Shown one piece after another: positions 14,758-29,224 of a DNA stretch of 64,000 bases. Under the pieces are notes generated by a model. It saw only the letters and a program-made list of their open reading frames with translations. It was not told the DNA's origin and did not search any database. The stretch comes from Acidovorax sp. 106. Its GTDB lineage: Bacteria; Pseudomonadota; Gammaproteobacteria; Burkholderiales; Burkholderiaceae_C. Position 1 is the stretch's first letter, and the number at the start of each line of letters is the position of its first letter. The position numbers and the translations under genes are program-made. The stretch is taken from positions 310,001-374,000 of the forward strand of contig NZ_RCCC01000001.1 in NCBI RefSeq assembly GCF_003663825.1, in the 5' to 3' direction.

Positions 14758-16149
14758 ATGACTAACGCCCTGCCCCGTATTCAAGACAAGCCCCCCGAAC
14801 TGCCCCAGATTACACGCCACGCGGCCACCGTGCTGGCAGGGCAGTTGGCGGTGATGGCGTTTGGCGTCACAGACACCTTGGTCGCAGGCCGGGATGGCGA
14901 AGCGTCATTGGCGGCACTGTCGGTGGGCTCGGCGATTTTCATCAGCATTTATGTGGGCCTGATGGGGGTGCTGCAGGCGCTGATGCCGGTGTGGGCGCAG
15001 CAACGTGGCGCAGGCGACCTGCCAGCAATAGGGCGGTCGGTGCGGCAGTCGCTGTACCTGTGCGCAGCAGCATCGGTGCTGGGCATGGGACTGCTGCTGT
15101 CACCCGCTCCCCTGCTGCGATGGACCGAAATCCCGCCCACGCTGCGCGCCGAGGTGGTGCAATACCTGGCGGTGCTGGCCTTCGCACTGCCTGCTGCGCT
15201 GCTGTTTCGCATCTACAGCACACTGAACCAGGCGATGGGCAGGCCGCAGTTGGTGACCTGGCTGCAGGTGGGCTCGCTTTTTATCAAAATCCCGCTGTCC
15301 ATCTGGTTCACGCTGGGCGGCGCGGGCTTGCCCGCCCAAGGGGTGGTGGGGTGCGCCTGGGCCACCCTGATCGTGAACTACACCATGCTGGGACTGGCGC
15401 TGTGGCTGTTGCGCACCCAAGGCATCTACGAGCCCCTGCAACTGTGGCGCCCGCTGGAGCGCCCCCATGGCCCCACACTGGGCAGTTTCTTGCAACTGGG
15501 CGTGCCTGCGGGCTTGGCCATCATGGTGGAGGTGACGTCATTCACTCTGATGGCGTTGTTCATAGCTCGCCAGGGCACGACGGCGGCGGCGGCGCACCAG
15601 ATCGCCTCGAACATGGGGGCGCTGCTATACATGGTGCCCCTGTCACTGGCGATTGCCACCAGCACCCGCGTGAGCTACTGGCTGGGCGCAGGCGATCCGC
15701 AGCACGCCCGCCGCATCGTTTATATGGGCTTTAGGGTTGCAGCGCTCACAGGTATTGCGCTAGCAGCTATGTTATTTATAGCAAACCATGCCATAGCCAG
15801 CCTGTACTCGGGCAGCCCTGCCGTGGTGGCGGTGGCGTCGGGCCTGCTGCTGTGGGTAGCGGCCTACCACTTGACCGATGCCTGCCAAACCTTTTGCGTC
15901 TTTGTGCTGCGCAGCTACCACATCACGGTGGCGCCACTGGTGGTGTATTGCCTGCTGCTGTGGGGCCTGGGGCTGGGGGGCGGCTACCTGCTGGCCTACG
16001 GCACGTGGAGCCCCTGGGCGCAGATGGCCCACTCACCCACCGCATTCTGGGCCTGCAGCGCCCTGGCCCTGGCCATCACCGCAGCCGCGTTTGGCGCGAT
16101 GCTGCTCAAAGCCGCCGCACGGACGGCGCAGCCCCCGCCATCAGCGTAG
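14758..16149 (+). CDS. MATE family efflux transporter (NorM-like)
   Basis: Inner-membrane Na+/H+-coupled multidrug antiporter of 463 residues with twelve hydrophobic segments. Start ATG 14758 (MTNALPRIQD) is favoured over an upstream ATG at 14680 because the extra 26 residues are polar and not family-like. Family landmarks include ITRHAATVLAGQLAVMAFGVTDTL, GVLQALMPVWAQQRGAGD and the repeat-half GVPAGLAIMVEVTSF. Codons 15741-15786 come from a dispersed repeat copy yet keep a hydrophobic helix (ALTGIALAAMLFIA). The last 9 bases overlap the 3' end of phoR on the other strand. Confidence 0.9.
   Translation: MTNALPRIQDKPPELPQITRHAATVLAGQLAVMAFGVTDTLVAGRDGEASLAALSVGSAIFISIYVGLMGVLQALMPVWAQQRGAGDLPAIGRSVRQSLYLCAAASVLGMGLLLSPAPLLRWTEIPPTLRAEVVQYLAVLAFALPAALLFRIYSTLNQAMGRPQLVTWLQVGSLFIKIPLSIWFTLGGAGLPAQGVVGCAWATLIVNYTMLGLALWLLRTQGIYEPLQLWRPLERPHGPTLGSFLQLGVPAGLAIMVEVTSFTLMALFIARQGTTAAAAHQIASNMGALLYMVPLSLAIATSTRVSYWLGAGDPQHARRIVYMGFRVAALTGIALAAMLFIANHAIASLYSGSPAVVAVASGLLLWVAAYHLTDACQTFCVFVLRSYHITVAPLVVYCLLLWGLGLGGGYLLAYGTWSPWAQMAHSPTAFWACSALALAITAAAFGAMLLKAAARTAQPPPSA
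15739..15788 (-). repeat. Dispersed AGCGCTT palindromic repeat inside the MATE gene
   Basis: On the minus strand it reads TTGCTATAAATAACATAGC followed by TGCTAGCGC, a spacer and GAGCGCT. It is antisense to the host gene, where it is translated as ALTGIALAAMLFIA. Confidence 0.7.
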
Positions 16150-17466
16150 GCGATTGGCCGGGAAGGAGACCGAGAACGTCGAGCCTTTTCCTACCTCACT
16201 GGCGATGTTGAGCGAAGCACCGTGGCGCTGCAACACATGCTTGACGATGGCCAGCCCCAGGCCAGTGCCTCCGGTTTCCCGCGAGCGGCTGCGGTCCACT
16301 CGGTAAAAGCGCTCCGTCAGCCGGGGGATGTGTTCGGCCGCAATGCCTGGCCCGGTGTCTCGCACGGAGAACAGGGCCGATCCATCGCTGCTGCGCTCCC
16401 AGGTCACCGTGATGCTGCCGCCGACCGGCGTGTAGCGGATGGCATTGTTGATGATGTTGGAGAGCGCGCTTTGCAACTCAGCAGGCACCCCGGCAATATC
16501 ACCCATGGCGCGCAACTGCTCGAGCGCAGGAAACCCCAGCACATGCGGGCGCGCCTGGTTCGGCGTAAGCAGTGAGGACAACGCCCGAGCTTCCTCTTCG
16601 CAGCGGTGGAGCAACGCCTGCACGGGCGTCCACTCCGAAATACCAGGCGGCGGACTGCCTTCCAGGCGCGAGAGCGTAAGCAAATCCTGCACTACGCTCT
16701 GCATGCGCGAAGCCTGCTGCGCCATCATGCCCAGGTAACGGTTGCGCTCCTGTGGCGAAAGCTGCAGGGTCTGCAAAGTCTCCACAAAGCCGATCAACAC
16801 CGTCAACGGCGTGCGAATCTCATGCGACACGTTGGCGACGAAATCGCGGCGCATGGCATCGGCCTGCTCCAAGGCCGTCACATCGCGCGACAGCAGCAGT
16901 TTGCGCCCGTCGCCATAGGGGTGCAGATGCACCGAGATGCGAACGGGGCGTGAGGGCTTGCTGTCGCGCCCCTGCAGCACCACGTCGTGCGAAAAATCAT
17001 GTGCGGCGTAGTAGGCACTGAAGTCCGGGTCGCGCACCAGGTTGCCGATGGACTGCATCACATCGCGTTGCGCATCGATGCCAAACTGGCTGGCAGCGAT
17101 CTGGTTGCACCACTCAATATGGCCTTCGCTGTCGAGCAGCACCACGCCATTGGGCGTGGCCTGCAGCGCGGCCAGAATCTCGTGGAGCCGGCTCAGACTG
17201 TCCTGTTCTCTGGCTTCACTTTGGCGCAGCAGTCGGCGAGCACGGTCAGCCGCTTCGCCCCACATGCCGCGCATATTCGGAGCCTTGGCCAGCTCACCCG
17301 TGCGCAACCACAGCAGCACGCGAGCCCCGCGCGATAAGTCCCAGACAAACCAAGCCCAGGCCGCCACCGCAGCCCCCGCTGCTGCGCCCCATGGGCCCGC
17401 CCGCCACCAACCCAGCCCGCCTCCGGCCAGTTGCCAGGTCAGGAAAAACACAAAACGCCAAAACAT
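16141..17466 (-). CDS. phoR: Phosphate regulon sensor histidine kinase PhoR
   Basis: Inner-membrane kinase of 441 residues that phosphorylates PhoB when phosphate is scarce. Two N-terminal hydrophobic helices (about 3-20 and 27-44) are followed by a linker, a PAS domain (LQATPNGVVLLDSEGHIEW) and the HisKA box FVANVSHEIRTPL with H215. The HATPase_c domain shows N box NIINNAIRYTP, G1 DTGPGI and G2 GTGLGLAI. It lies 98 bases after phoB and ends in a 9-base convergent overlap with the MATE gene. It completes the pstSCAB-phoU-phoB-phoR order. Confidence 0.95.
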   Translation of the reverse strand: MFWRFVFFLTWQLAGGGLGWWRAGPWGAAAGAAVAAWAWFVWDLSRGARVLLWLRTGELAKAPNMRGMWGEAADRARRLLRQSEAREQDSLSRLHEILAALQATPNGVVLLDSEGHIEWCNQIAASQFGIDAQRDVMQSIGNLVRDPDFSAYYAAHDFSHDVVLQGRDSKPSRPVRISVHLHPYGDGRKLLLSRDVTALEQADAMRRDFVANVSHEIRTPLTVLIGFVETLQTLQLSPQERNRYLGMMAQQASRMQSVVQDLLTLSRLEGSPPPGISEWTPVQALLHRCEEEARALSSLLTPNQARPHVLGFPALEQLRAMGDIAGVPAELQSALSNIINNAIRYTPVGGSITVTWERSSDGSALFSVRDTGPGIAAEHIPRLTERFYRVDRSRSRETGGTGLGLAIVKHVLQRHGASLNIASEVGKGSTFSVSFPANRLR

Positions 17467-17564
17467 GCGAGACGCACAGCTTTCTCAAAAATGCGGGCCA
17501 TTTCGATGGCAGGCCCGCCTGTGGCCCGTTCAGTGCAAACCCAGCAGCGGCTGGAAGCTGGCCC

Positions 17565-18272
17565 TCAGGCCTGCATCAGCGCCTGGGGTTGGGCCGTGAG
17601 GCGGTAACCTGCGCCGCGCACGGTCTCGACCATGGTGCCTGCCGTGCCCAAGGCCTCGCGCAGGCGCTTGACGTGGACATCCACCGTGCGCTCTTCAATG
17701 AACACATGGTCACCCCACACCTTGTCGAGCAACTGCGAGCGGCTGTGCACCCGCTCCGAGTGCTTCATGAGAAAGTGCAGCAGCTTGAACTCGGTAGGCC
17801 CCACCTTGAGGGGTTGCGCCTGGAAGGTGACGCGGTAGGTGGCTGCGTCCAGCACCAGATCGCCAATGGTCACGCTGTCGTTCACCTGTTCGGGCGCGCG
17901 GCGGCGCAGCACGGCACGGATGCGGGCCAGCAGCTCTTGCGTGGAAAACGGCTTGGTGATGTAGTCGTCCGCACCCGCATCCAGACCAGCCACCTTGTCA
18001 GGCTCGTCACCGCGCGCGGTGAGCATGAGGATCGGGATGGCCTTGATGCGGCTGTCGGCGCGCCACTTGCGGGCCAGCTGCAGCCCGCTTTGGCCAGGCA
18101 ACATCCAGTCCAGCAGGATCACGTCCGGCAGCACGGCATCCAGCTCGCGCTGGGCCGACTCGCCATCTTCAGACCAGATGGGCTGGAACCCGTTGTGCCG
18201 CAGGTTCACGGCAATCAGCTCGGCAATCGCGGGTTCATCCTCAACGATCAAGACCCGGGGCATTTTCTTCAT
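17565..18272 (-). CDS. phoB: Phosphate regulon response regulator PhoB
   Basis: OmpR/PhoB-type activator of 235 residues. The receiver domain has the acidic pair E11-D12, phosphoacceptor D55 (LLDWMLPG), the T in LMLTARG and K in TKPFS. The C-terminal winged helix includes VGPTEFKLLHFLM and the recognition region RTVDVHVKRLREAL. It is expected to bind the Pho boxes found upstream of pstS and ppk1. Sits 15 bases after phoU. Confidence 0.97.
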   Translation of the reverse strand: MKKMPRVLIVEDEPAIAELIAVNLRHNGFQPIWSEDGESAQRELDAVLPDVILLDWMLPGQSGLQLARKWRADSRIKAIPILMLTARGDEPDKVAGLDAGADDYITKPFSTQELLARIRAVLRRRAPEQVNDSVTIGDLVLDAATYRVTFQAQPLKVGPTEFKLLHFLMKHSERVHSRSQLLDKVWGDHVFIEERTVDVHVKRLREALGTAGTMVETVRGAGYRLTAQPQALMQA

Positions 18273-18287
18273 GGCGATGCCCTTCCC

Positions 18288-18992
18288 TTACTGCAACACG
18301 GTCGATTCAATATCGTCCATCGCGGTATGGCGCACGTCCTTGCCTTTGACCAGATAGATGATGAGTTCGGCCACATTCTTGGAGTGGTCGCCAATGCGCT
18401 CAATCGCCTTGGCCAAAAAGAGCAAGTCCAGGCTGGCAGAGATGGTGCGAGGGTCTTCCATCATGTAGGTGACCAGCTTGCGCACAAACCCGTCGAACTC
18501 CTTGTCGATCAGGTCGTCTTCTTTCAGGATGGCGAGCGCGGCTTTGGTGTCCAGGCGGGCAAAGGCATCCAGGGCCTTGCGCAGCAGGCCGGAGGCCAAA
18601 TCTGCCGCCATGCGCAAATCACTGGAGGGCAGTGAACGCGCGGCACCGCTTTCAATGATGGACTTGACCATCCGCGCCATCTTGTGCGCCTCGTCGCCCA
18701 TGCGCTCGAGGTTGGCGGTGGCCTTCGAGAAAGCGATCAGCAAGCGCAGGTCGCGCGCCGTGGGTTGACGGCGGGCAATGATGGACGAGAGTTCATGGTC
18801 AATCTCCACCTCCATGGCATTCACGCGCTGCTCCATGGCGACCACTTGCTCCACGGCGTCCATGCTGAACTGGGACAAGGCATAGATCGCCTGGCGGATT
18901 TGCGACTCCACCAAGCCGCCCAACTCCATCACGCGGGAAGAGACGTTATTGAGTTCGCTATCGAACTGGGTGGAGAGGTGTTTTTCGGGCAT
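18288..18992 (-). CDS. phoU: Phosphate signalling protein PhoU
   Basis: Cytosolic three-helix-bundle repeat protein of 234 residues that links PstB and PhoR and prevents uncontrolled Pi uptake. Both repeats carry the metal-binding E/DxxxD-type motifs (VEIDHELSSIIARRQP and the later RIGDHSKNVAELI). The length is normal. It is 9 bases after pstB. Confidence 0.96.
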   Translation of the reverse strand: MPEKHLSTQFDSELNNVSSRVMELGGLVESQIRQAIYALSQFSMDAVEQVVAMEQRVNAMEVEIDHELSSIIARRQPTARDLRLLIAFSKATANLERMGDEAHKMARMVKSIIESGAARSLPSSDLRMAADLASGLLRKALDAFARLDTKAALAILKEDDLIDKEFDGFVRKLVTYMMEDPRTISASLDLLFLAKAIERIGDHSKNVAELIIYLVKGKDVRHTAMDDIESTVLQ

Positions 18993-19001
18993 GGTGTCTC
19001 C

Positions 19002-19787
19002 TCAGCCGAAACGGCCGGTAATGTAGTCTTCGGTTTCTTTGCGCTGGGGCTTGAAGAACATCTGCTCTGTCTCGCCAAACTCCACCAGATCGCCCAGGTA
19101 CATGTAGGCCGTGTAGTCGCTGCAGCGCGCGGCCTGCTGCATGTTGTGGGTCACGATGACCACGGTGTAGTCGTTCTTCAGCTCGGCAATCAGTTCCTCA
19201 ACCTTGGCGGTAGAGATGGGGTCCAGCGCCGAGCAAGGCTCGTCCAGCAACAGCACTTCGGGCTTGATGGCAATGCCGCGTGCAATGCACAGGCGCTGCT
19301 GTTGGCCGCCCGAGAGGCTGGAGCCACTTTGATTGAGCTTGTCCTTGACTTCGTTCCACAGTGCCGCCTTGCGCAGCGCCCATTCCACACGGTCGTCCAT
19401 GTCAGTGGCGTTGAGGCTTTCAAACAGCTTCACACCAAACGCGATGTTGTCGTAGATGGACATCGGGAACGGCGTGGGCTTCTGGAACACCATGCCCACC
19501 TTGGCGCGCACCAGGGCCACGTCCTGCTTGCTGGTGAGCAGGTTCTCACCGTCCAGCACGATCTGGCCTTCAGCGCGCTGCTCGGGGTACAGCTCGAACA
19601 TGCGGTTGAAGGTGCGCAGCAGGGTGGACTTGCCACAGCCCGAAGGGCCGATGAAGGCCGTGACCTTGTTCTCGGGGATGTCCAGGTTGATGCCCTTGAG
19701 GGCGTGGAATTTGCCGTAGTAAAAGTTCAGATCGCGCACCGTGATCTTGGAGTTGGCGGATGCGGATGCTTGCAGGGTGGAGGGCAT
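19002..19787 (-). CDS. pstB: Phosphate ABC transporter ATP-binding protein PstB
   Basis: Nucleotide-binding subunit of the high-affinity phosphate importer, 261 residues. Walker A is GPSGCGKST, the signature motif [14 protein letters not shown], Walker [14 protein letters not shown] and the switch histidine is in [10 protein letters not shown]. The N-terminal 15 or so residues are Ser/Ala-rich and may not be conserved. Confidence 0.97.
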
Positions 19788-19802
19788 GAATGTCTTCCTT
19801 GT

Positions 19803-20684
19803 TTATTTCTGGCGTGTCAAAACACGCGCCAGGATGTTGAGACCGAGAACAGCTACCGTGATCAGGAACACGCCGGCCCACGCCAGCTCCTGCCAGTTCT
19901 CATAGGGGCTCATCGCAAATTTGAAAATCGTGACCGGCAAGCTGGCCATGGGTTTGGACAGATCGGCATTCCAGAATTGGTTGTTGAGCGCGGTAAACAG
20001 CAGAGGCGCTGTCTCACCCGCAATGCGCGCCACAGCCAGCAACACCCCAGTGATCACACCGGCACGGGCCGCACGCAAGGTAACCATGGTGATGACGCGC
20101 CACTTGGGCGTGCCCAGGGCATAAGCCGCCTCACGCAGGCTGGCAGGCACCAGCAGCAGCATGTTTTCGGTAGTGCGGATGACCACCGGAATCACGATCA
20201 GCGCCAGGGCCAGCACCCCGGCGTAGCCTGAGAAGCTCTTGAACCGGGCTACCACCACTGCGTACACAAACAGGCCAATCACGATGCTCGGGGCGGACAG
20301 CAAAATGTCGTTCACGAACCGGGTCGTGGCCGCCAGCCAGCTGCGCGACTCGTATTCGGCCAAGTAGATACCGGCCATGATGCCAATCGGCGTGCCCACA
20401 AACGTGGCCATCGTTACCATGACCAACGAACCAAAGATGGCGTTGGAAATACCGCCCACTTCGTTGGGTGGTGGGGTCATCTGCGTGAACAGCGCCACAC
20501 TCAGGCCACCCAGGCCCAGGCGGATGGTTTCCCACAGAATCCAGACCAGCCAGAACACACCGAACAGCATGGCCGCTAAAGACAGCGTGAGCGCAATCTG
20601 GTTGACGCGCTTGCGGCCGTTGTAGCGGGCTTGCCGCATTTGCGCCAAATCGGCGGCAGAAATCAGGCGTTGAGAGGTACTCAT
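19803..20684 (-). CDS. pstA: Phosphate ABC transporter permease PstA
   Basis: Membrane subunit of 293 residues with six hydrophobic segments and the binding-protein-dependent transport loop in [19 protein letters not shown]. The ATG overlaps the pstC stop by 4 bases. Confidence 0.96.
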
Positions 20685-21706
20685 GAACGCGCCCCTTCAC
20701 TCTTTTTAAGACGCGACAGCAACAGCTTGGACAAAGACAGCACCACGAAGGTGATGAAGAACAGAACCAAGCCCAGGTAAATGAGGGACGCCTGGTGCAA
20801 GCCCTCACCGGCTTCGGCGAACTCGTTGGCCAATGCAGAGGTGATGCTGTTGGCCGCCTCAAACACCGACAGGGAGTCGAGCTGGTTCATATTGCCGATG
20901 ACGAATGTCACGGCCATGGTTTCGCCCAACGCACGGCCCAGGCCCAGCATGACGCCGCCGAGCACACCGGTCTTGGTGAACGGCAGCACCACTTTGAAGA
21001 CAACCTCCCAAGTGGTCGCACCCAAGCCATAGGCAGACTCTTTGAGCAAGGCGGGGGTCACCTCAAACACATCACGCATCACCGACGCAATGAAGGGGAT
21101 GATCATGATGGCCAGGATGATGCCCGCCGACAAAATGCCGATGCCCACGGGAGGGCCCGACACAAAAGCGCCCAAGTAAGGCACTCCGCTGAACATCGCT
21201 TGCAAAGGCTGCTGCACAAAGCGCGCAAGAATGGGGCCAAACACCATCAGCCCCCACATGCCATACACAATGGACGGCACGGCCGCCAGCAGTTCGATCG
21301 CAGTCCCCAAAGGACGCTTGAGCCAGGCGGGAGAAAGTTCGGTCAAAAACAGCGCAATGCCAAAACTCACGGGCACGGCGATCAGCAAGGCGATGACCGA
21401 GGTGGCCAAGGTACCGTAAATCATGACCAAGCCACCGTACTCGTTCTGTACGGGGTCCCAGACGCTACGGGTCAGGAAACTGAGGCCATATTTCGCGATC
21501 GAAGGCCAGGCTCCGATCACCAAAGAAACAAGGATGCCCACCAGGAGCAGCAAGGTCAGCACGGCTGCGCTGCGAGCGAGCCAACCAAAAATGCGGTCAG
21601 CCAACATGCCAGAGATCAAGGGCTGCGGGCGAGGTGGCGTGGTCCGTTGAGCGCCACGCCCCGCCTTGGCAGACGGGGTTTGCGGGACCGGCAAGATAGT
21701 GGACAC
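20681..21706 (-). CDS. pstC: Phosphate ABC transporter permease PstC
   Basis: Membrane partner of PstA, 341 residues, with an N-terminal polar extension before the first membrane segment and the EAA-type loop [19 protein letters not shown]. Start GTG 21706. It is separated from pstS by 71 bases containing a stable hairpin. Confidence 0.95.
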
Positions 21707-21734
21707 GTTAAGAGCCTTCTATAAATGCAATCTG

Positions 21735-21767
21735 GGGACTGGCCAGGCCATCAAGCCAGCCAGTCCC
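21735..21767 (-). promoter_or_regulatory. Intercistronic hairpin between pstS and pstC
   Basis: GGGACTGGC (21735-21743) and GCCAGTCCC (21759-21767) form a perfect 9-bp stem with a 15-base loop. There is no T-run. Hairpins at this place usually protect the pstS message and lower downstream expression, giving excess binding protein; that role is inferred. Confidence 0.6.
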
Positions 21768-21777
21768 ACCAGACTAC

Positions 21778-22818
21778 TTACTTGTATGCAATCGCCTTAC
21801 CAGCCGCATCTTGGATACCAGCCCAAGACTTCAGAATGATGCCCTTCACAGCGTCAGGCATAGGCACATAGTCCAGGTCTTCAGCGGTTTTGTCCCCAGA
21901 CTTGTAAGCCCATTCAAAGAACTTCAGAGACGTAGCCGCCTGCACAGGCTTGTCTTGCGACTTCTGCATCAGGATGAAGGTGGCGCCAGTGATGGGCCAG
22001 GATTCCTTGCCAGGCTGATTGGTCAAGATTTGGTAGAAGCTCTTGGCCCAATCTGCACCTGCAGCAGCAGCCTTGAAGGCGGTGTCGTCAGGGGCGACAA
22101 ACTGACCATCGGCATTTTGCATCTGCACATAGGTCATCTTGTTTTGCTTGACGTAGGCGTACTCCACGTAACCGATGGAGTTGGGCAGACGACCCACAAA
22201 CGCAGCCACGCCTTCGTTGCCCTTGCCACCCGCACCCGTAGGCCAGTTCACTGCTGTGCCCTCACCAACCTTGCTCTTCCACTCAGCATTCACCTTGCTC
22301 AGGTAATTAGTAAAGATAAAGCTGGTGCCCGAACCGTCGGCACGGCGCACAGGGGCGATGGCGGCATCAGGCAGAGCCACACTGGGGTTGAGCGCCTTGA
22401 TGGCGGCATCGTTCCAGTTGGTGATTTTGCCCAGGTAAATGTCGCCCAACACTTGGCCGCTGAGCTTGATCTGACCGGCAGCAATGCCCTTGATATTGAC
22501 CACCGGCACCACGCCACCGATCACGGTAGGAAACTGAACCAAGCCCTTTTTGCTCAGTTCTTCATCCTTGAGCGGGGCATCAGAGGCACCAAAGTCCACT
22601 GTCTTGGCTTCGATCTGGCGCAGGCCAGCTCCGGAGCCAACGGATTGGTAGTTGATCTTCACACCAGTGGCCTTGTTGTAATCAGCAGCCCACTTGGAGT
22701 ACAGGGGTGCAGGGAAGCTGGCACCCGCGCCAGTTGCCTCTTGCTGCGCCATGGCGCTGGAAAAAGCACCCGCAGCAACCACACCGGCAACCAGAACTCG
22801 AATCGCAGACAGTTTCAT
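21778..22818 (-). CDS. pstS: Periplasmic phosphate-binding protein PstS
   Basis: High-affinity Pi receptor of the Pst importer, 346 residues. A Sec signal peptide ends at about AMA|QQ (residue 24). Ligand-binding segments are visible as GAGASFPAPLYSKW, VDFGASDAPL and RADGSGTSFIFTNYL. The first gene of the pst-pho operon, 52 bases downstream of a Pho box. Confidence 0.97.
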   Translation of the reverse strand: MKLSAIRVLVAGVVAAGAFSSAMAQQEATGAGASFPAPLYSKWAADYNKATGVKINYQSVGSGAGLRQIEAKTVDFGASDAPLKDEELSKKGLVQFPTVIGGVVPVVNIKGIAAGQIKLSGQVLGDIYLGKITNWNDAAIKALNPSVALPDAAIAPVRRADGSGTSFIFTNYLSKVNAEWKSKVGEGTAVNWPTGAGGKGNEGVAAFVGRLPNSIGYVEYAYVKQNKMTYVQMQNADGQFVAPDDTAFKAAAAGADWAKSFYQILTNQPGKESWPITGATFILMQKSQDKPVQAATSLKFFEWAYKSGDKTAEDLDYVPMPDAVKGIILKSWAGIQDAAGKAIAYK

Positions 22819-22855: not shown

Positions 22856-22889
22856 ACTCTAGGATCACTCTATGACAGTGTTGTGACAT
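22856..22889 (-). promoter_or_regulatory. Pho box and -10 of the pstS promoter
   Basis: On the minus strand ATGTCACAACACTGTCATA (22889-22871) has two TGTCA half-sites 11 bases apart, the PhoB spacing, in place of a -35. TAGAGT (22861-22856) lies about 10 bases further on as the -10. Confidence 0.85.
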
Positions 22890-23221
22890 AAAAAAATGGA
22901 TTGTCACAACAGCCGCAGGAGCGATTTTCAAGGAGTCGTGGGCGCACGAATACCTTACCGATCTGCATCCAAACTGCGCAGCCCCCCCAGGCGACAACAT
23001 CACGTGGACCGACTCGTGGAGTTCTTGCGGCTCACCGTCATAAGAATGACACAAAGCCCCCTTAGTCTCCCGCCACCGGCCTACGCGCTGCTACGACCTC
23101 ACAAGAGACATCGATGGCATGGACGCTGCCCCACTTTATGACCCACCGCAGGTCTGCCCGCCCGAGACAAGCCCCAACCATGACCGCACCAGAGCGCCGC
23201 CGACACCCCAAATCACACCCC
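22890..23221. other. Intergenic region between the pst operon and the binding-protein gene
   Basis: About 330 bases. Besides the Pho box at its left end it holds TTGTCACAAC at 22901-22910, a 10-bp perfect palindrome that does not have PhoB half-site spacing, and a C-rich stretch near 22983. No recognisable promoter or RNA was found for the rightward gene. Two in-frame ATGs (23114, 23180) would extend that gene into this region. Confidence 0.5.
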
Positions 23222-24394
23222 ATGCTCACCCACATCACGACCCACCCTGCCTCGCGCCCCCTGCGCAGGAGTAGTGGCGCCGTCGCGCTGGGGCGACGTG
23301 ATTGGCTGCGCTGGGCAACAGGCATGGGGGTATGGGTTACGGCCGGGCAGCCCACCTGGGCACAGGGGGACAGCTCGCGCACCGTTTCGATTGCACAAGT
23401 GGTGGACATGTCGCCCACCCAACAAGATGTGAGCCGAGATTTTCTGACCGGATCGCGCGCGGCGTGGCAAGACACGAATGCACGCGGTGGCATCCAGGGC
23501 AAACCGGTGCAGCACATGGTTCTGGAAACCGATGGCACCCCAGGGCAACTCCAGTCGGCCTGGCAAACCGCCCACCGTCAAAGCCAGTGCGCAGCGTTGG
23601 CGGGCTGCGTAGGGCACAACGCGGCCCAAGGGCTTGCCAAGCTGCAAACAGGTGCGGACACCAACAACCCGCTGCCTTTGGTGGCCCCATGGCTGCACCA
23701 CACTACAGCCCAAGGTGCATCCGATACCGTATTTGATGTCTTTGCCGACTTGCGCGCGCAAGTCACCCATGCATTGAAGTCCCTGGCATCCATGGGTGTC
23801 CCAGAACTGGCCGTCGCCTATGCGGCGGGCCATGACCCTGCTCTTTGGCAAGCCGCAGTGGCGCAAGCCGCACGCGAGCAGAACGTCAAGGTGCAAACCA
23901 TCGGCGCGGACGCGCAGTTGACGCAGCCCATCGTTCTTTTTGTGGGGGGCACCCCCGAACTGCACGCGTTTGTGGAAAAACTCAAACTGCCAGCGGGGCG
24001 CCAGTGCTACGTGATTGCATTGGCCGACGTGAATTTGCAGGTGCTGGCCCAAATGGGCAATCTGCCCAAGAAAGTGTCCATCGTCGCCACACAGACCGTT
24101 CCCCTGGTCACTGCGGGCCTGCCCATCGTCCGCGCATACCGAGAAGCCCTGGCACGTTTGTACGACGAGCCCCCCTCGCCCCAGGGGTTGGCCGGTTTTA
24201 TTGCCGCCAAGTACACCGCCGAGGTGTTGCAACAAATTAACGGCACCATCACCCGGGCCAATGCACTGGCGGCCTTCCAGCAACGCAAGCCCGTCACAGT
24301 GGGTGGCTGGGCTGTTTCCTATCAAGACAAGAAACGCTCCGCGCCCTTTGTGACCCAAAGCATGCTGTCATCCGACGGTCGCATTGTGGGCTAA
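23222..24394 (+). CDS. Periplasmic ABC-type (LivJ-like) substrate-binding protein, Tat signal
   Basis: A type-I periplasmic binding protein of the branched-chain amino-acid receptor class. The N-terminus holds a twin-arginine motif GRRDWLRWATG, a short hydrophobic stretch and a cleavage-like QPTWAQ, pointing to Tat export. The mature part begins VSIAQVVDMSPTQQDVSRDFLTG, typical for the class, with GGIQGKPVQHMVLETDG following. No permease or ATPase gene is nearby. It lies between divergent pstS and ppx, which suggests but does not prove a link to phosphate. ATG 23222 is chosen; 23114, with a better ribosome site, would give an unusually long pre-signal region. Ligand unknown. Confidence 0.75.
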   Translation: MLTHITTHPASRPLRRSSGAVALGRRDWLRWATGMGVWVTAGQPTWAQGDSSRTVSIAQVVDMSPTQQDVSRDFLTGSRAAWQDTNARGGIQGKPVQHMVLETDGTPGQLQSAWQTAHRQSQCAALAGCVGHNAAQGLAKLQTGADTNNPLPLVAPWLHHTTAQGASDTVFDVFADLRAQVTHALKSLASMGVPELAVAYAAGHDPALWQAAVAQAAREQNVKVQTIGADAQLTQPIVLFVGGTPELHAFVEKLKLPAGRQCYVIALADVNLQVLAQMGNLPKKVSIVATQTVPLVTAGLPIVRAYREALARLYDEPPSPQGLAGFIAAKYTAEVLQQINGTITRANALAAFQQRKPVTVGGWAVSYQDKKRSAPFVTQSMLSSDGRIVG

Positions 24395-24476: not shown

Positions 24477-25955
24477 ATGCAAAACGGAACATTGCTCGCA
24501 GCTGTGGATCTTGGATCCAACAGCTTTCGCCTTGAAATTGGCCGCTTCGAGCACGGCCACATCCACAAAGTCGAATACCTCAAGGAGACCGTGCGCCAAG
24601 GCAACGGGCTGGACGACAACCGCAACCTGACGCAAGACGCGCTGGAGCGCGGCTGGGCCTGCCTGGCACGATTTGGTGAACGACTGGCTGGATTTCCTCG
24701 CGAACATGTGCGAGCCGTCGCCACCCAAACTCTGCGCGAAGCCCGCAACCGGGACGATTTTCTAACCCGCGGCAGTGAGGTGCTGGGGTACCCGATTGAC
24801 GTAGTGTCTGGCATCGAAGAAGCCCGACTGATCTACCAAGGGGTGGCCCGATTGCTGCCGCAATCCGATGAACGCCGGCTGGTGGTGGACATTGGGGGGC
24901 GATCTACCGAACTGATTTTGGGCGAGCAGTTCTCCCCCAAGTCCGTGGCTTCGTTCAGGGTGGGCAGCGTGGCATGGTCGTCCCGCTATTTTGCGGATGG
25001 CGCCTTCACCCCCCAGGCCTTTCTGGCCGCAGAAATCGCCGCCAAAGCCGTGCTGGACGAGGCTCTGGCCGTTTTTCGCCGAGACGCGTGGGATGTGGCG
25101 TATGGATCATCAGGTACAGCCGGTGCCGTGGGCGATGTGCTAGCAGCCATGGGTGGTCCCAAGGGCATCATCACTCGCTCGGGCCTGGAGGCATTGCGCG
25201 ACAAACTGCTGCGCGCCCAAAGCGCAGACCGAGTTCGCATGGAAGGACTCAAGGAAGACCGGCGCGCCGTGATTGGCGGCGGGATCAGCATCCTGCGAGC
25301 GGTGTTCGATCTTCTGGATATTGACGAAATGCAGGTGGCGCAAGGGGCCTTGCGACAAGGCGCCCTCTACGACCTATTGGACCGCGAGCAGCCCGAGACC
25401 GACCTGCGCACCGACACCGTGAACGCCCTGATGCAGCGCTTTGCCGTGGATGTGCCCCACGCCGAACGCGTTGCCGAAACGGCCTGCAAGCTCTTCTTGC
25501 AAGCGGCGCAGCCCGACAGTGAGCGGGCCGCACGCAAACTGGAATGGGCTGCCAAGTTGCACGAGGTGGGATGCCGCATTTCGCACAGCGACTACCACCG
25601 GCACGGCGCCTACATCCTCGACAACACAGACGCGGCAGGCTTTGCGCTGCCCGAGTTGCATCGACTGAGTGTGCTCGTTTTGGGACAACGTGGAAAAGTG
25701 CGCAAGCTAGAGGCGGATTTATCCGACCCCATCTTTGCTCTGCAGTTGCTGTGCCTTCGATTGGCCGTAGCGCTGTGCCACGCACGGCGCGCCCCCGATA
25801 TCTCAGGCATACGGTTGCAGGCAGAGCCTGGCGTATTCACACTCTCAGCCCCACCGCCTTGGTCAAAAGCCTATCCCCAATCGGCCCACTTGCTGCAGGA
25901 AGAAGTCACCGCCTGGCAAAAAACGCCTTGGGATTTGCACATCGTGGGTGATTGA
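24477..25955 (+). CDS. ppx: Exopolyphosphatase (Ppx/GppA family)
   Basis: Hydrolyses terminal phosphates of polyphosphate (and may act on pppGpp). The 492-residue product has the ASKHA phosphate-binding loops AAVDLGSNSFRLEIG at about 7-21 and VVDIGGRSTELILG, an invariant Glu in SGIEEARLIYQG, and the YGSSGTAGAVGDV segment. A C-terminal HD-like domain includes AAKLHEVGCRISHSDYHRHGAYI. Start ATG 24477. It is followed after 50 bases by the RHH/KAP gene and is convergent with sixA-ppk1, so synthesis and breakdown of polyphosphate are encoded face to face. Confidence 0.95.
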   Translation: MQNGTLLAAVDLGSNSFRLEIGRFEHGHIHKVEYLKETVRQGNGLDDNRNLTQDALERGWACLARFGERLAGFPREHVRAVATQTLREARNRDDFLTRGSEVLGYPIDVVSGIEEARLIYQGVARLLPQSDERRLVVDIGGRSTELILGEQFSPKSVASFRVGSVAWSSRYFADGAFTPQAFLAAEIAAKAVLDEALAVFRRDAWDVAYGSSGTAGAVGDVLAAMGGPKGIITRSGLEALRDKLLRAQSADRVRMEGLKEDRRAVIGGGISILRAVFDLLDIDEMQVAQGALRQGALYDLLDREQPETDLRTDTVNALMQRFAVDVPHAERVAETACKLFLQAAQPDSERAARKLEWAAKLHEVGCRISHSDYHRHGAYILDNTDAAGFALPELHRLSVLVLGQRGKVRKLEADLSDPIFALQLLCLRLAVALCHARRAPDISGIRLQAEPGVFTLSAPPPWSKAYPQSAHLLQEEVTAWQKTPWDLHIVGD

Positions 25956-25997
25956 TACACACCCTTAAACGGTATAAACTGTTTATACCGTTTAAGG
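25952..25997 (+). promoter_or_regulatory. Near-perfect 35-bp palindromic operator candidate before the RHH/KAP gene
   Basis: Arms CCTTAAACGGTATAAAC (25963-25979) and GTTTATACCGTTTAAGG (25981-25997) are perfect reverse complements around one T. Each arm repeats TAAAC at a 9-base step, so four half-sites are arrayed symmetrically. A possible promoter is TTGATA (25952-25957) with TATAAA (25973-25978, 15-base spacer) inside the left arm, and the right arm ends in the AAGGAG ribosome site. Binding by a protein, or folding in RNA, could block expression. Confidence 0.7.
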
Positions 25998-26005
25998 AGA
26001 ACTAC

Positions 26006-26503
26006 ATGAACACCGCCCAAGAAACAACGCCCGTCGCTACCGCTGCAGAAAAAGAACCGGCAAAAGCCACCAAAGCAGTCGCCGCTCCCGCAAAAAAAGC
26101 ACCAGCATCGCCCACCAAGGCAAAAACCGAAAAAGCCAAGGTAGCGGCGGCCCCTAAAGCCAAAGCAGCCCCGAGCAAAGCGATCCCCATCAAGGAAGCC
26201 AAGACCAAAAAGCCCAAGTTGGTGCGCGACAGCTTCACCATCCCCAAGGACGAATACCTGGTGATTGAAAACCTGAAGCAGCGGGCACTGGGTCTCTCGC
26301 ACCCTGTCAAAAAGAGCGAGCTGCTGCGCGCTGGACTGAAGCTGCTCGCAGGCCTCTCTGATGCTGCGCTGCGCACCGCCTTACAGGCCGTGCCTTCCAT
26401 CAAAACCGGGCGCCCTACCAAAGAAGCGCAGGCACCACAACCCAAACCAGTGGCAGTGGCGGCCCCCAAGGCAAAGCCAGCCGCCAAGGCTCGCACCAAG
26501 TAA
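26006..26503 (+). CDS. Lysine/alanine-rich protein with a ribbon-helix-helix-like core (KAP/AlgP-like tails)
   Basis: A 165-residue basic protein. Residues 1-72 are a low-complexity Lys/Ala/Pro tail like histone H1 or AlgP. Residues 73-114 form a compact core: a strand VRDSFTIPKDEY, a helix IENLKQRALGL and a second helix KKSELLRAGLKLL, the order of a MetJ/Arc ribbon-helix-helix fold. Residues 115-135 continue with SDAALRTALQAVPSIKTGRP, and 136-165 are again Lys/Ala/Pro-rich. Start ATG 26006 follows AAGGAG. The core resembles a widespread unannotated Burkholderiales protein; fold and DNA binding are inferred. The position between ppx and sixA-ppk1 and the 35-bp palindrome suggest an autoregulated nucleoid or polyphosphate-associated protein. 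Confidence 0.75.
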   Translation: MNTAQETTPVATAAEKEPAKATKAVAAPAKKAPASPTKAKTEKAKVAAAPKAKAAPSKAIPIKEAKTKKPKLVRDSFTIPKDEYLVIENLKQRALGLSHPVKKSELLRAGLKLLAGLSDAALRTALQAVPSIKTGRPTKEAQAPQPKPVAVAAPKAKPAAKARTK

Positions 26504-26524: not shown

Positions 26525-26986
26525 TCACAGGTACTCGGGGGACTGAACGGTCATCAGGACCGTTTGGCTCTGCTCCAGGCGTTGCCGCTGGCGCAGCCAC
26601 CACACAGCCCCTTTGCGTACCGCACACTCAGGCGACTGCAGCCCGAGCAATTGGGCAATCACCTGCCCCAGTACGGGCTGGTGTCCCACAATCAAGATGG
26701 TGCCCCGGGCGTTGGGCCATTGCGCCAAGTCGAGCAAATCTTGCACTGTGCCGCCTGGTAACAGTTCAGCACGCATTTTGAATTTGCGGCCCAGCGCTGC
26801 TGCCGTCTGCTCTGTTCGGCGCGCCGGGCTGGCAATCACACGCAACCCCTCGGGCAATTGGCGGTCCAGCCAGGCGGCCATTCTGGCCGCCTGCTTCTCG
26901 CCGCGCGGCGTTAACGCGCGTGCCAAATCATCTACCCCCTCGGCAGCCTCTTCGGCCTCGGCATGTCGCCAGAGAATCAAATCCAT
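26525..26986 (-). CDS. sixA: Phosphohistidine phosphatase SixA
   Basis: Small histidine phosphatase of the phosphoglycerate-mutase superfamily, 153 residues, removing phosphate from phosphohistidine proteins. The catalytic RH motif is in LILWRHAEAEE (H8), and the second His is in ILIVGHQPVLGQ. Start ATG 26986 gives the family-like N-terminus MDLILWRHAE and lies 11 bases after the ppk1 stop, so co-transcription with ppk1 is likely. Confidence 0.9.
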   Translation of the reverse strand: MDLILWRHAEAEEAAEGVDDLARALTPRGEKQAARMAAWLDRQLPEGLRVIASPARRTEQTAAALGRKFKMRAELLPGGTVQDLLDLAQWPNARGTILIVGHQPVLGQVIAQLLGLQSPECAVRKGAVWWLRQRQRLEQSQTVLMTVQSPEYL

Positions 26987-26997
26987 TTCATCCCCCG

Positions 26998-29052
26998 TCA
27001 CGCAGACCGAAGCCCCGCCGCGCCATAGCGCACCATCAAGGCGTTCTGCGCGCCATGCCCTGTCGATGGGCGGCTTGCACGCTGGTACGCACCGTTGGCG
27101 TCCAAGGTCCACGCATCCCGGTCGTCATGCAAATAGGCCACCAAGCACTCATCCACAATTTGCTGGCGCAGTTTCGAGTCCGTCACCGGCCACGCCAACT
27201 CAATGCGCCGCATCATGTTGCGATTCATCCAATCGGCACTCGAAAGATACAAGTCTTCTTGGCCATTGCTGCGAAAGTAAAACACCCGCGTATGCTCCAA
27301 GAACCGGCCAATGACCGAGCGCACGCGGATGTTATCGGTGACGCCCGGTACCTGAGCGGCCAACATGCACGCTCCACGCACAATGAGATCAATGCGCGCA
27401 CCGCACTGCCCGGCCAGGATCAGCGCCCGAATCAAAGCCTCGTCGGTCAAGGCGTTCATCTTGAGCACGATGCGTGCATCTTCTCCTCGACTGGCCGCTT
27501 GCCCCACCTGCTCAATCTTTTCCTGCATGCGGCGCTGCAGATGAAATGGGGCCAAGATCAGTTGGCGCAGCTTAGGCGGGCGATTCTGGCTGGCAAGGTG
27601 GCTAAAAACGCCATCCATGTCAGCAGTGGTTTCCTCGTTCGCAGTCAGGTAACTGAGGTCTGTGTACAAGCGTGCTGTGCGCACGTTGTAGTTGCCCGTG
27701 GAGAGGTGCCCGTAGCGGCGCAAACGCCCACCTTCCCGGCGGGTCACCAACAGCATCTTTGCGTGGGTCTTGAGGCCCACCACCCCATAAACCACCTGCG
27801 CCCCCACAGACTCCAGAGCTTCTGCCCAGTTGATGTTGGCCTCTTCATCAAAGCGGGCTTTCAGCTCCACAACCGCCATGACCTCTTTGCCGCGGCGCAC
27901 CGCTTCCGTCAGCAACTCCATCAACTCTGAATCAGCCCCTGTGCGGTAGATCGTTTGCTTGATCACCAGCACTTGAGGGTCGTTGACGGCCTCGCGCAAA
28001 AATGCCAGCACGCCATCGAAACTCTCAAATGGCTGGTGGATCACCACGTCCCTCTGGCGCACCTGCTCCAAAATAGAGACTCCCTGCTGCAACTGCCGTG
28101 GCCAGGACGAGCGCCAGGGCGGAAACAACAAAGCGGGGTCATTGACGAGATCCACCAATTGCGTCAGCCGCACCAGATTGACAGGCCCTGGAACCCTGTA
28201 GACAGCCGCAGGCGGTAGCGCAAACTGCGCCCTCAAAAACTCAGACAAAAACGAAGAACAACCGGCAGATACCTCCAATCGAACCGCTTGGCCATAGTGA
28301 CGCTGCTGAAGCCCTTGGCGCAGAGCAGTGCGCAGGTTGCGCACATCCTCCTCGTCCAGCGCCATGTCCGAATGCCGGGTAACCCGGAACTGCGAGAATT
28401 CGGTGACTTCGCGCCCTGGAAACAGGTCGTGCAGATGGGAGCGGATGATGCTCGAAAGGCTCACAAACCAAGTGCCTTGCGGGGCCACCTTGCTGGGCAT
28501 GCGAACCAGGCGTGGCAAGGCCCGAGGCACTTTCACAATGGCGACTTCGTTCTCACGACCAAAGGCATCCGGTCCGCGCAGGCGCACAATGAAATTCAAG
28601 GATTTGTTGGCCACTTGCGGAAACGGATGGGCCGGATCCAGCCCCACCGGTATGAGCAAAGGCCGCACCTCTTTCACAAAGTAGTCTTGTACCCAGCGCC
28701 GCTGCGCGGCATTGCGTTCCCCGTGGGAGACGATGCGAATTCCATGCGACTCAAACGCGGGGACCAAGGACTCGTTGTACAACGCATACTGGCGCACCAC
28801 TAGGTTGTGGACGATTGCGGACAAGGACTCAAGCGACGCAGCACTGTAGAGGCCCTTGGCGTCCCCGTTCTTGGCGGCAGTGATGTGTGGCGCAGCCCGC
28901 ACCTCAAAAAACTCATCCAGATTGGACGACACGATGCACAGGTAACGCAGCCGCTCCAGCAACGGCACGTCCGTGCGTGCGGCCCAATCAAACACCCGCT
29001 CGTTGAATGCCAGGATGCTCTGATCACGGTCCAGCATCACAACAGGGGACAT
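26998..29052 (-). CDS. ppk1: Polyphosphate kinase 1
   Basis: Membrane-associated enzyme that polymerises ATP gamma-phosphate into polyphosphate. Phospholipase-D-like fold with the catalytic His in GLKTHAKMLLV and the second conserved segment HLSTGNYNVRTARLYTDLSY. The family N-terminus LDRDQSILAFNERVFDW is intact. From ATG 29052 it has 684 residues, close to the usual 690; an open frame continues to GTG 29178, but that start would leave almost no leader after the Pho-box promoter. A PhoB site lies at 29206-29224, inside the end of the upstream gene. Followed by sixA. Confidence 0.95.
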   Translation of the reverse strand: MSPVVMLDRDQSILAFNERVFDWAARTDVPLLERLRYLCIVSSNLDEFFEVRAAPHITAAKNGDAKGLYSAASLESLSAIVHNLVVRQYALYNESLVPAFESHGIRIVSHGERNAAQRRWVQDYFVKEVRPLLIPVGLDPAHPFPQVANKSLNFIVRLRGPDAFGRENEVAIVKVPRALPRLVRMPSKVAPQGTWFVSLSSIIRSHLHDLFPGREVTEFSQFRVTRHSDMALDEEDVRNLRTALRQGLQQRHYGQAVRLEVSAGCSSFLSEFLRAQFALPPAAVYRVPGPVNLVRLTQLVDLVNDPALLFPPWRSSWPRQLQQGVSILEQVRQRDVVIHQPFESFDGVLAFLREAVNDPQVLVIKQTIYRTGADSELMELLTEAVRRGKEVMAVVELKARFDEEANINWAEALESVGAQVVYGVVGLKTHAKMLLVTRREGGRLRRYGHLSTGNYNVRTARLYTDLSYLTANEETTADMDGVFSHLASQNRPPKLRQLILAPFHLQRRMQEKIEQVGQAASRGEDARIVLKMNALTDEALIRALILAGQCGARIDLIVRGACMLAAQVPGVTDNIRVRSVIGRFLEHTRVFYFRSNGQEDLYLSSADWMNRNMMRRIELAWPVTDSKLRQQIVDECLVAYLHDDRDAWTLDANGAYQRASRPSTGHGAQNALMVRYGAAGLRSA

Positions 29053-29184
29053 GGGGCTTTTGCACCGCAAAGCTCCAGAATCGTCAGGAGTACCAGACTC
29101 TCCAGCACCCTCAACAACAGCATCGGTCAGCGGTTTGTCCAAAGGCAAGGGCAGCATGAGAGGCGCAATCAAAGTCACAATCAG

Positions 29185-29224
29185 ACGCGCAGTATTTGCT
29201 ATTCAGATGACAGTGATGTGACAG
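29185..29224 (-). promoter_or_regulatory. Pho box upstream of ppk1, inside the glycosyltransferase 3' end
   Basis: On the minus strand CTGTCACATCACTGTCATC (29224-29206) shows two CTGTCA half-sites 11 bases apart, close to the PhoB consensus. An AT-richer stretch with TAGCAAATACT follows as the likely -10. It overlaps the coding end (VTSLSSE) and stop of the preceding gene. Confidence 0.85.

Follow-up and report, generated by a model that had tools for sequence, protein, structure and literature searches.

A putative autorepressing ribbon-helix-helix-like protein with an AlgP-like basic tail, encoded between ppx and sixA-ppk1 in Acidovorax sp. 106

The gene considered here, P0001, lies in a 64,000-nucleotide stretch of the Acidovorax sp. 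106 genome (contig NZ_RCCC01000001.1, positions 310,001 to 374,000), which is called the window below and whose numbering is used throughout. P0001 runs on the forward strand from an ATG at 26006 to a stop codon ending at 26503 and encodes a basic protein of 165 amino acids (pI 10.4; net charge, +23). Upstream of it is ppx (24477 to 25955, forward strand), coding for a Ppx/GppA family phosphatase, while sixA (26525 to 26986, reverse strand), coding for a phosphohistidine phosphatase, is convergent with it and is followed by ppk1 (26998 to 29178, reverse strand), coding for polyphosphate kinase. An earlier note on this DNA, made from the letters and open reading frames only, had set the gene between ppx and sixA-ppk1, and the products of all three neighbors indeed scored above their Pfam cut-offs. 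NCBIfam models additionally identified ppk1 above cut-off and placed sixA just below it (74.1 bits versus a cut-off of 74.5), while neither the Ppx nor the GppA model passed for the ppx product, so the name ppx rather than gppA is likely, not certain. P0001, present in one copy in the source genome (4.88 Mb), belonged to no Pfam family above cut-off and to no NCBIfam family. The gap of 50 nucleotides (nt) between ppx and P0001 holds a 35-bp palindrome.

This palindrome (25963 to 25997) consists of two 17-nt arms (25963 to 25979 and 25981 to 25997) that are 100% complementary around a 1-nt center, which confirms the earlier description of both the element and its setting; at up to 3 mismatches it occurs once in the window, and it was found in 0 of 100 dinucleotide shuffles. 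As also claimed, it contains TATAAA (25973 to 25978), and its right end is overlapped by AAGGAG (25994 to 25999). The four TAAAC/GTTTA half-sites proposed as its building blocks are present (TAAAC at 25966 and 25975; GTTTA at 25981 and 25990), but as the operator unit they have given way to three tandem 9-bp boxes of the form WWACNGTWW, which locus comparison and genome searches delimited as a conserved 27-bp operator (25967 to 25993). The box centers, ACGGT (25969 to 25973), ACTGT (25978 to 25982), and ACCGT (25987 to 25991), are separated in the window by TATA and TTAT. A candidate sigma-70 promoter, TTGATA-17-TAAACT (25952 to 25980, forward strand; a pattern match only, with 9/12 letters matching and a mean of 0.1 per shuffle), has its second hexamer (25975 to 25980) inside the operator; no other sigma-70-like pattern match was obtained, and the array overlaps this one. 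The gene extent had previously been given as 25952 to 26503; the stop was kept, and the TTG at 25952, a mechanical call, was rejected as the start because reading from it would translate the operator. The ATG at 26006 yields a length similar to that of the closest homologues among the matches listed, mostly 163 to 166 amino acids.

Conservation of the operator was analyzed in 119 loci fetched from 151 same-family matches (45 from a genus search and 109 from a family search, 3 of them shared; the 32 others were excluded by manual selection, and many of them, though not all, lie near contig ends) and in a distant set comprising 40 of the 59 genomes outside the family that had a match. Results revealed that the conserved element is the 27-bp array, the outer CCTT/AAGG that extends it to 35 bp not being conserved: columns −2 to 25 carried 0.57 to 2.00 bit versus 0.02 to 0.42 bit outside the element, as computed from 101 of the 119 loci that had been preselected for at least 10 of the 12 box letters, which biases the box letters upward and leaves the other columns unbiased. 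At least 10 box letters were thus found in 101/119 loci (in two of them, L074 and L121, the best-scoring stretch falls in the coding part), compared with 18/1,807 equal-length control segments and about 23/2,380 shuffled regions; at least 11 letters were found in 80/119 loci, compared with 0/1,807 and about 3/2,380, respectively. Under a stricter count, with the array ending no more than 45 nt before an in-frame ATG and three loci without such an ATG dropped, the values were 98/116 and 77/116, and sets of ATGs taken elsewhere in the same loci gave 0/1,160. Moreover, pairs of ACNGT in the 119 same-family upstream regions showed a 9-bp spacing 104 times and an 18-bp spacing 37 times, with any other spacing up to 40 bp seen at most 5 times, and the 9-bp spacing also led in the 40 distant loci (9 times, with no other spacing exceeding 3). 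The arrays of some members are not a single palindrome (L113, for instance, has three direct boxes); what is conserved is thus the array of boxes. The operator unit is best read from these alignments as an ACNGT center occurring three times at a 9-bp period, like a met-box array. MetJ, which has the ribbon-helix-helix (RHH) fold, binds met-boxes of 8 bp that adjoin in tandem, one dimer per box. The P0001 operator resembles such arrays in its adjoining tandem boxes of fixed period and its place before the start codon; it differs in its 9-bp boxes and ACNGT centers, and P0001, unlike MetJ, carries a long basic tail.

Genome-wide searches tied this operator to a single gene. In the source genome, the three-box pattern at up to 3 mismatches matched one place, the operator, with 0 mismatches, although a backward control pattern at the same laxity also matched one place. 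The two-box pattern matched without mismatch only in the operator, with no match elsewhere at fewer than 2 mismatches, and at up to 2 mismatches it was rarer than its backward control (12 versus 70 places). Among 47 genomes of the genus, 45 possess the gene and the same 45 possess the array, 44 of them exactly once and one with a second site at 3 mismatches; gene and site adjoin in 44 of the 45, lying on different contigs in the remaining one (G158). The 2 genomes without the gene lack the array as well, and ppx and sixA are less than 80 bp apart in them, so gene and operator are missing together; these natural losses (L317 and L318) are possible comparison strains. Among 200 sampled genomes of the family, the array at up to 1 mismatch was present in 47 of the 105 with the gene and in none of the 95 without it (Fisher P = 1.4e-16, uncorrected for relatedness). 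The 53 listed family sites correspond to 49 distinct arrays, 4 being second registers. The gene is found within 1 kb of 43 of these arrays but not of the other 6, a number below the 11 matches (in 10 genomes) of the backward control pattern. No downstream gene is common to these six arrays and the extra 3-mismatch site (L346 to L352). One of the six, L346 (position 3001 in genome G359), lies just beyond ppx, while the gene is found 9.4 kb off beside sixA/ppk1 with only a degraded array upstream of it, which fits an insertion having split operator from gene; the arrays of L350 and L351 consist of AATTAC-type sequence and appear unrelated.

This near one-site-per-genome pattern in genus and family, established by computation, lends good support to the earlier proposal that the P0001-family gene is autorepressed. 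An alternative would be a conventional RHH transcription factor that regulates the polyphosphate (polyP) genes plus itself, for which the RHH-like core and the neighborhood described below would be suitable. We regard it as improbable, given that unmismatched two-box matches are confined to the operator, that looser ones fall below their control, and that the few arrays away from the gene are outnumbered by control matches and share no downstream gene; for the same reasons, a regulon of several genes was rejected. In addition, the array persists where the gene has no ppx, sixA, or ppk1 match next to it (at least 10 letters in 18/29; stricter count, 17/28), as predicted by a dedicated autoregulatory operator and not by a multigene regulon.

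The protein itself begins with a Lys/Ala/Pro-rich tail (residues 1 to 67, 26006 to 26206), taken to be disordered from its composition, followed by an RHH-like core (residues 68 to 127, 26207 to 26386) that includes a third predicted helix at residues 119 to 127, an AT-hook-like KTGRP motif (residues 133 to 137, 26402 to 26416), and a short Lys-rich C-terminal tail. Across 112 tails, the mean composition was 18% Lys, 30% Ala, and 16% Pro, and KPAA was counted 128 times in 149 tails versus 30.8 after shuffling, with at least 2 copies in 31 of the 149. These values bear out the AlgP-like character that had been assigned to the tails, a likeness limited to tail composition and logic. In the motif KxGRP, the K, G, R, and P are invariant in all 60 aligned cores, and the motif is present in 113/116 same-family and 31/39 distant proteins; compared with the AT-hook R-G-R-P, it has T, P, or A at the position of the first Arg in the rows seen, and PF02178 matched 2 of the 60 cores (best E value, 0.012).

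An RHH class for the core, also part of the earlier description, is weakly but consistently indicated; with caution, the core agrees with the RHH topology of strand, helix A, and helix B, helix B being near S-E-x-x-R. The AlphaFold2 monomer model shows helices at positions 14 to 29 and 36 to 48 after an extended segment and no strand, in keeping with a ribbon that would arise only on dimerization. The core aligns in register with RHH_1 sequences well above a reversed control, with low scores (18 of 23 RHH_1 loci used; 2 were too short and 3 were not entered). Foldseek returned 13 matches, none below an E value of 5, with ParD1 first and several unrelated folds among them, and the core profile, searched against Protein Data Bank sequences, retrieved mostly designed armadillo repeats, in which no individual stretch passed, and ParD at an E value of 1.1. 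A separate weak fold list (VIA) is headed by antitoxin and plasmid regulators, and the absence of other folds from it excludes nothing. Pfam searches of the 60 cores listed 16 families at E values up to 1, without a consistent one: the best was HNH_repeat (0.0019; 2 cores), with AT_hook in 2 cores, ParD_antitoxin in 1 (E value, 0.067), and Gp-FAR-1 in 6. Since no Pfam RHH family was listed for P0001, and hence no RHH match above cut-off, the protein is called RHH-like and not a Pfam RHH member. The occurrence of ParD1, Rv0298, and Rv0300 among the nearest folds raises the question of an orphan antitoxin-like RHH protein, the remnant of a toxin-antitoxin pair. This seems highly unlikely, considering that the window offers no toxin-like neighbor, with ppx upstream and sixA convergent downstream, and that members of the ppx/sixA/ppk1 set flank the gene wholly or partly in 90 of the 119 same-family loci. 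P0001 was not filed as a type II antitoxin because no toxin adjoins the gene; no cognate toxin gene was found beside it, and partner toxins elsewhere in these genomes were not searched for.

The genomic neighborhood connects P0001 with polyP genes. Homologues were collected with core-only and profile searches, an order-wide whole-protein search (33/150 genomes) having been set aside because many of its matches read through stop codons, a behavior typical of low-complexity tails; 80 named loci served only as a listing. In all 42 loci fetched from the 45 in the genus, the gene is surrounded by ppx, sixA, and ppk1, and at least one of the three is found in the fetched flank of the 90 same-family loci mentioned above, 59 of the 119 having only about 1.5 kb of flank on each side. 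The expectation that orthologues would keep the operator element and the ppx/ppk setting was thus borne out. Beyond the family, ppx, sixA, ppk1, or ppk2 lies within about 6 kb in 14/40 distant loci, or in 18/40 counting pst/pho genes, although two of the extra four are phoB-like matches at 35% identity and possibly other response regulators. The order ppk2-sixA-gene-ppk1 is seen in 4/4 fetched loci (4 of 7 genomes with a match) of a Gallionella-like family, f24, whose named near homologues are Gallionella, and other distant orders are gene-phoU-ppx, gene-sixA-ppx-ppk1, and pst operon-gene-ppk1. Within 1.5 kb, ppx, sixA, or ppk genes were found in 8/40 distant loci versus 0/23 RHH_1 loci (flanks up to 1.5 kb), the sole empirical control, one locus of which had a weak pstB match. 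Overall, the evidence for a polyP role of the protein is fair. One genome, G325, has two family copies (L146 and L147), both without a ppx, sixA, or ppk1 match in about 4 kb; a ppk2-like match lies 1.5 kb from L146.

Considering operator, protein, and neighborhood, we think it probable, though well short of certain, that P0001 is an autorepressing RHH-type protein whose tail binds polyanions and which acts as an AlgP/PhaF-like polyP tether or organizer in an amount set by autorepression. We infer that dimers would occupy the three adjacent 9-bp boxes over the −10 region and message start and keep their own gene, and no other, from being transcribed, with ribbon residues R74, S76, and T78 reading ACNGT and the C-terminal KxGRP perhaps lying in the minor groove of the AT-rich DNA between boxes. 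The long Lys/Ala/Pro tail would provide sequence-independent binding to polyanions, including nucleoid DNA and polyP, and the physiological partner, in view of the gene neighborhood, is most likely polyP together with the nucleoid. The interpretation offered in the earlier note, a DNA- and polyP-binding granule organizer, is partly supported as a whole.

Several known systems resemble parts of this proposal. AlgP of Pseudomonas aeruginosa, which binds DNA and is linked to polyP granules, has a Lys/Ala/Pro tail of the KPAA type like that of P0001, and its Lys/Pro/Ala domain is required for polyP granule spacing, according to PMC9239181. In that account, the AlgP repeats form a 154-amino-acid C-terminal domain and the net charge of AlgP is +55, whereas P0001 has its long tail at the N terminus and a net charge of +23. 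P0001 also differs in its RHH-like folded core with its own operator; since the likeness was judged from the tails, it was not filed as AlgP. PhaF and PhaM tie storage granules to the nucleoid through a histone-like DNA-binding part, as proposed here for P0001, but they organize polyhydroxyalkanoate/polyhydroxybutyrate (PHA/PHB) granules, and the available text of PMC13052382, which describes them, does not mention an autoregulatory operator for either. P0001 would work like an autorepressing RHH protein and resembles AlgP and PhaF in its tail. A literature search with partial coverage returned no title or abstract describing the P0001 family.

Two observations limit the case for a polyP tether or organizer. 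Fetched flanks show no ppx, sixA, or ppk gene in 29/119 same-family and 26/40 distant loci; strong as it is, the linkage is therefore not obligatory. Furthermore, lysine-rich regions can bind polyP, as in two Escherichia coli proteins as described in PMC12345225, but charge alone does not explain the binding, acidic residues having mattered in YihI; on that account the P0001 tail may or may not qualify. The same loci without polyP neighbors are compatible with an autoregulated histone H1-like nucleoid protein with no particular polyP role, whose tail is a generic polycation and whose place beside ppx/ppk is inherited gene order, and the interval from ppx to the gene is free of Pho-box-like sites at up to 3 mismatches. 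The linkage, however, recurs in other families, where partners and orientations differ; a single inherited order would not yield such variety, although an old cluster later shuffled could. We judge the nucleoid protein unlikely, yet the most serious competitor to a polyP tether or organizer.

A more specific form of the polyP reading, put forward tentatively and as something we rather doubt than expect, is a polyP gauge in one protein, in which polyP would pull the repressor away from the operator and the supply of coat protein would keep pace with the amount of polymer. At low polyP, the protein would occupy its single three-box operator and keep the gene shut; as chains or granules grow, their negative charge would capture the Lys/Ala/Pro tail, the protein would leave the operator, and the gene would be turned on, with expression continuing until the surface of the granule has been coated and tethered to the nucleoid. 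PhaR of Ralstonia eutropha offers a precedent: for this autoregulator, PMC3570403 proposes derepression through binding of the storage polymer to the repressor. It binds PHB and represses phaP as well, whereas one operator is seen for P0001 and its polymer binding is hypothetical. If true, the gauge would unite in a single polypeptide, for polyP, repression as by PhaR and tethering as by PhaF/AlgP. The control of polyP granule number, size, and place in bacteria is largely open, and the available part of one review (PMC13052382) names no protein other than AlgP in connection with the positioning of polyP granules. The P0001 family has no Pfam or NCBIfam name above cut-off and is served by one defined operator, and its one gene, one site, and one polymer lend themselves to a clean genetic test.

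Further upstream in the window lie phoR, phoB, phoU, pstB, pstA, pstC, and pstS (16141 to 22818, reverse strand), named from their translations alone without a family search, so the whole stretch constitutes a phosphate and polyphosphate district. A Pho-box-like sequence, CTGTCACATCACTGTCAT, occurs at 29207 to 29224 on the reverse strand with 1 mismatch, 28 bp upstream of the start of the ppk1 reading frame; further such sites are at 22872 to 22889 (reverse strand, 2 mismatches, upstream of pstS) and 24365 to 24382 (forward strand, 3 mismatches, upstream of ppx). With up to 3 mismatches allowed, the window holds 8 matches, compared with a mean of 4 in shuffles, and because 11 of 100 shuffles reach 8, only the best match is notable. 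Between pstS and ppx, the frame at 23114 to 24394 (forward strand) was read as an ABC-type substrate-binding protein, and matches to it lie upstream of ppx in L118 and L121 as well.
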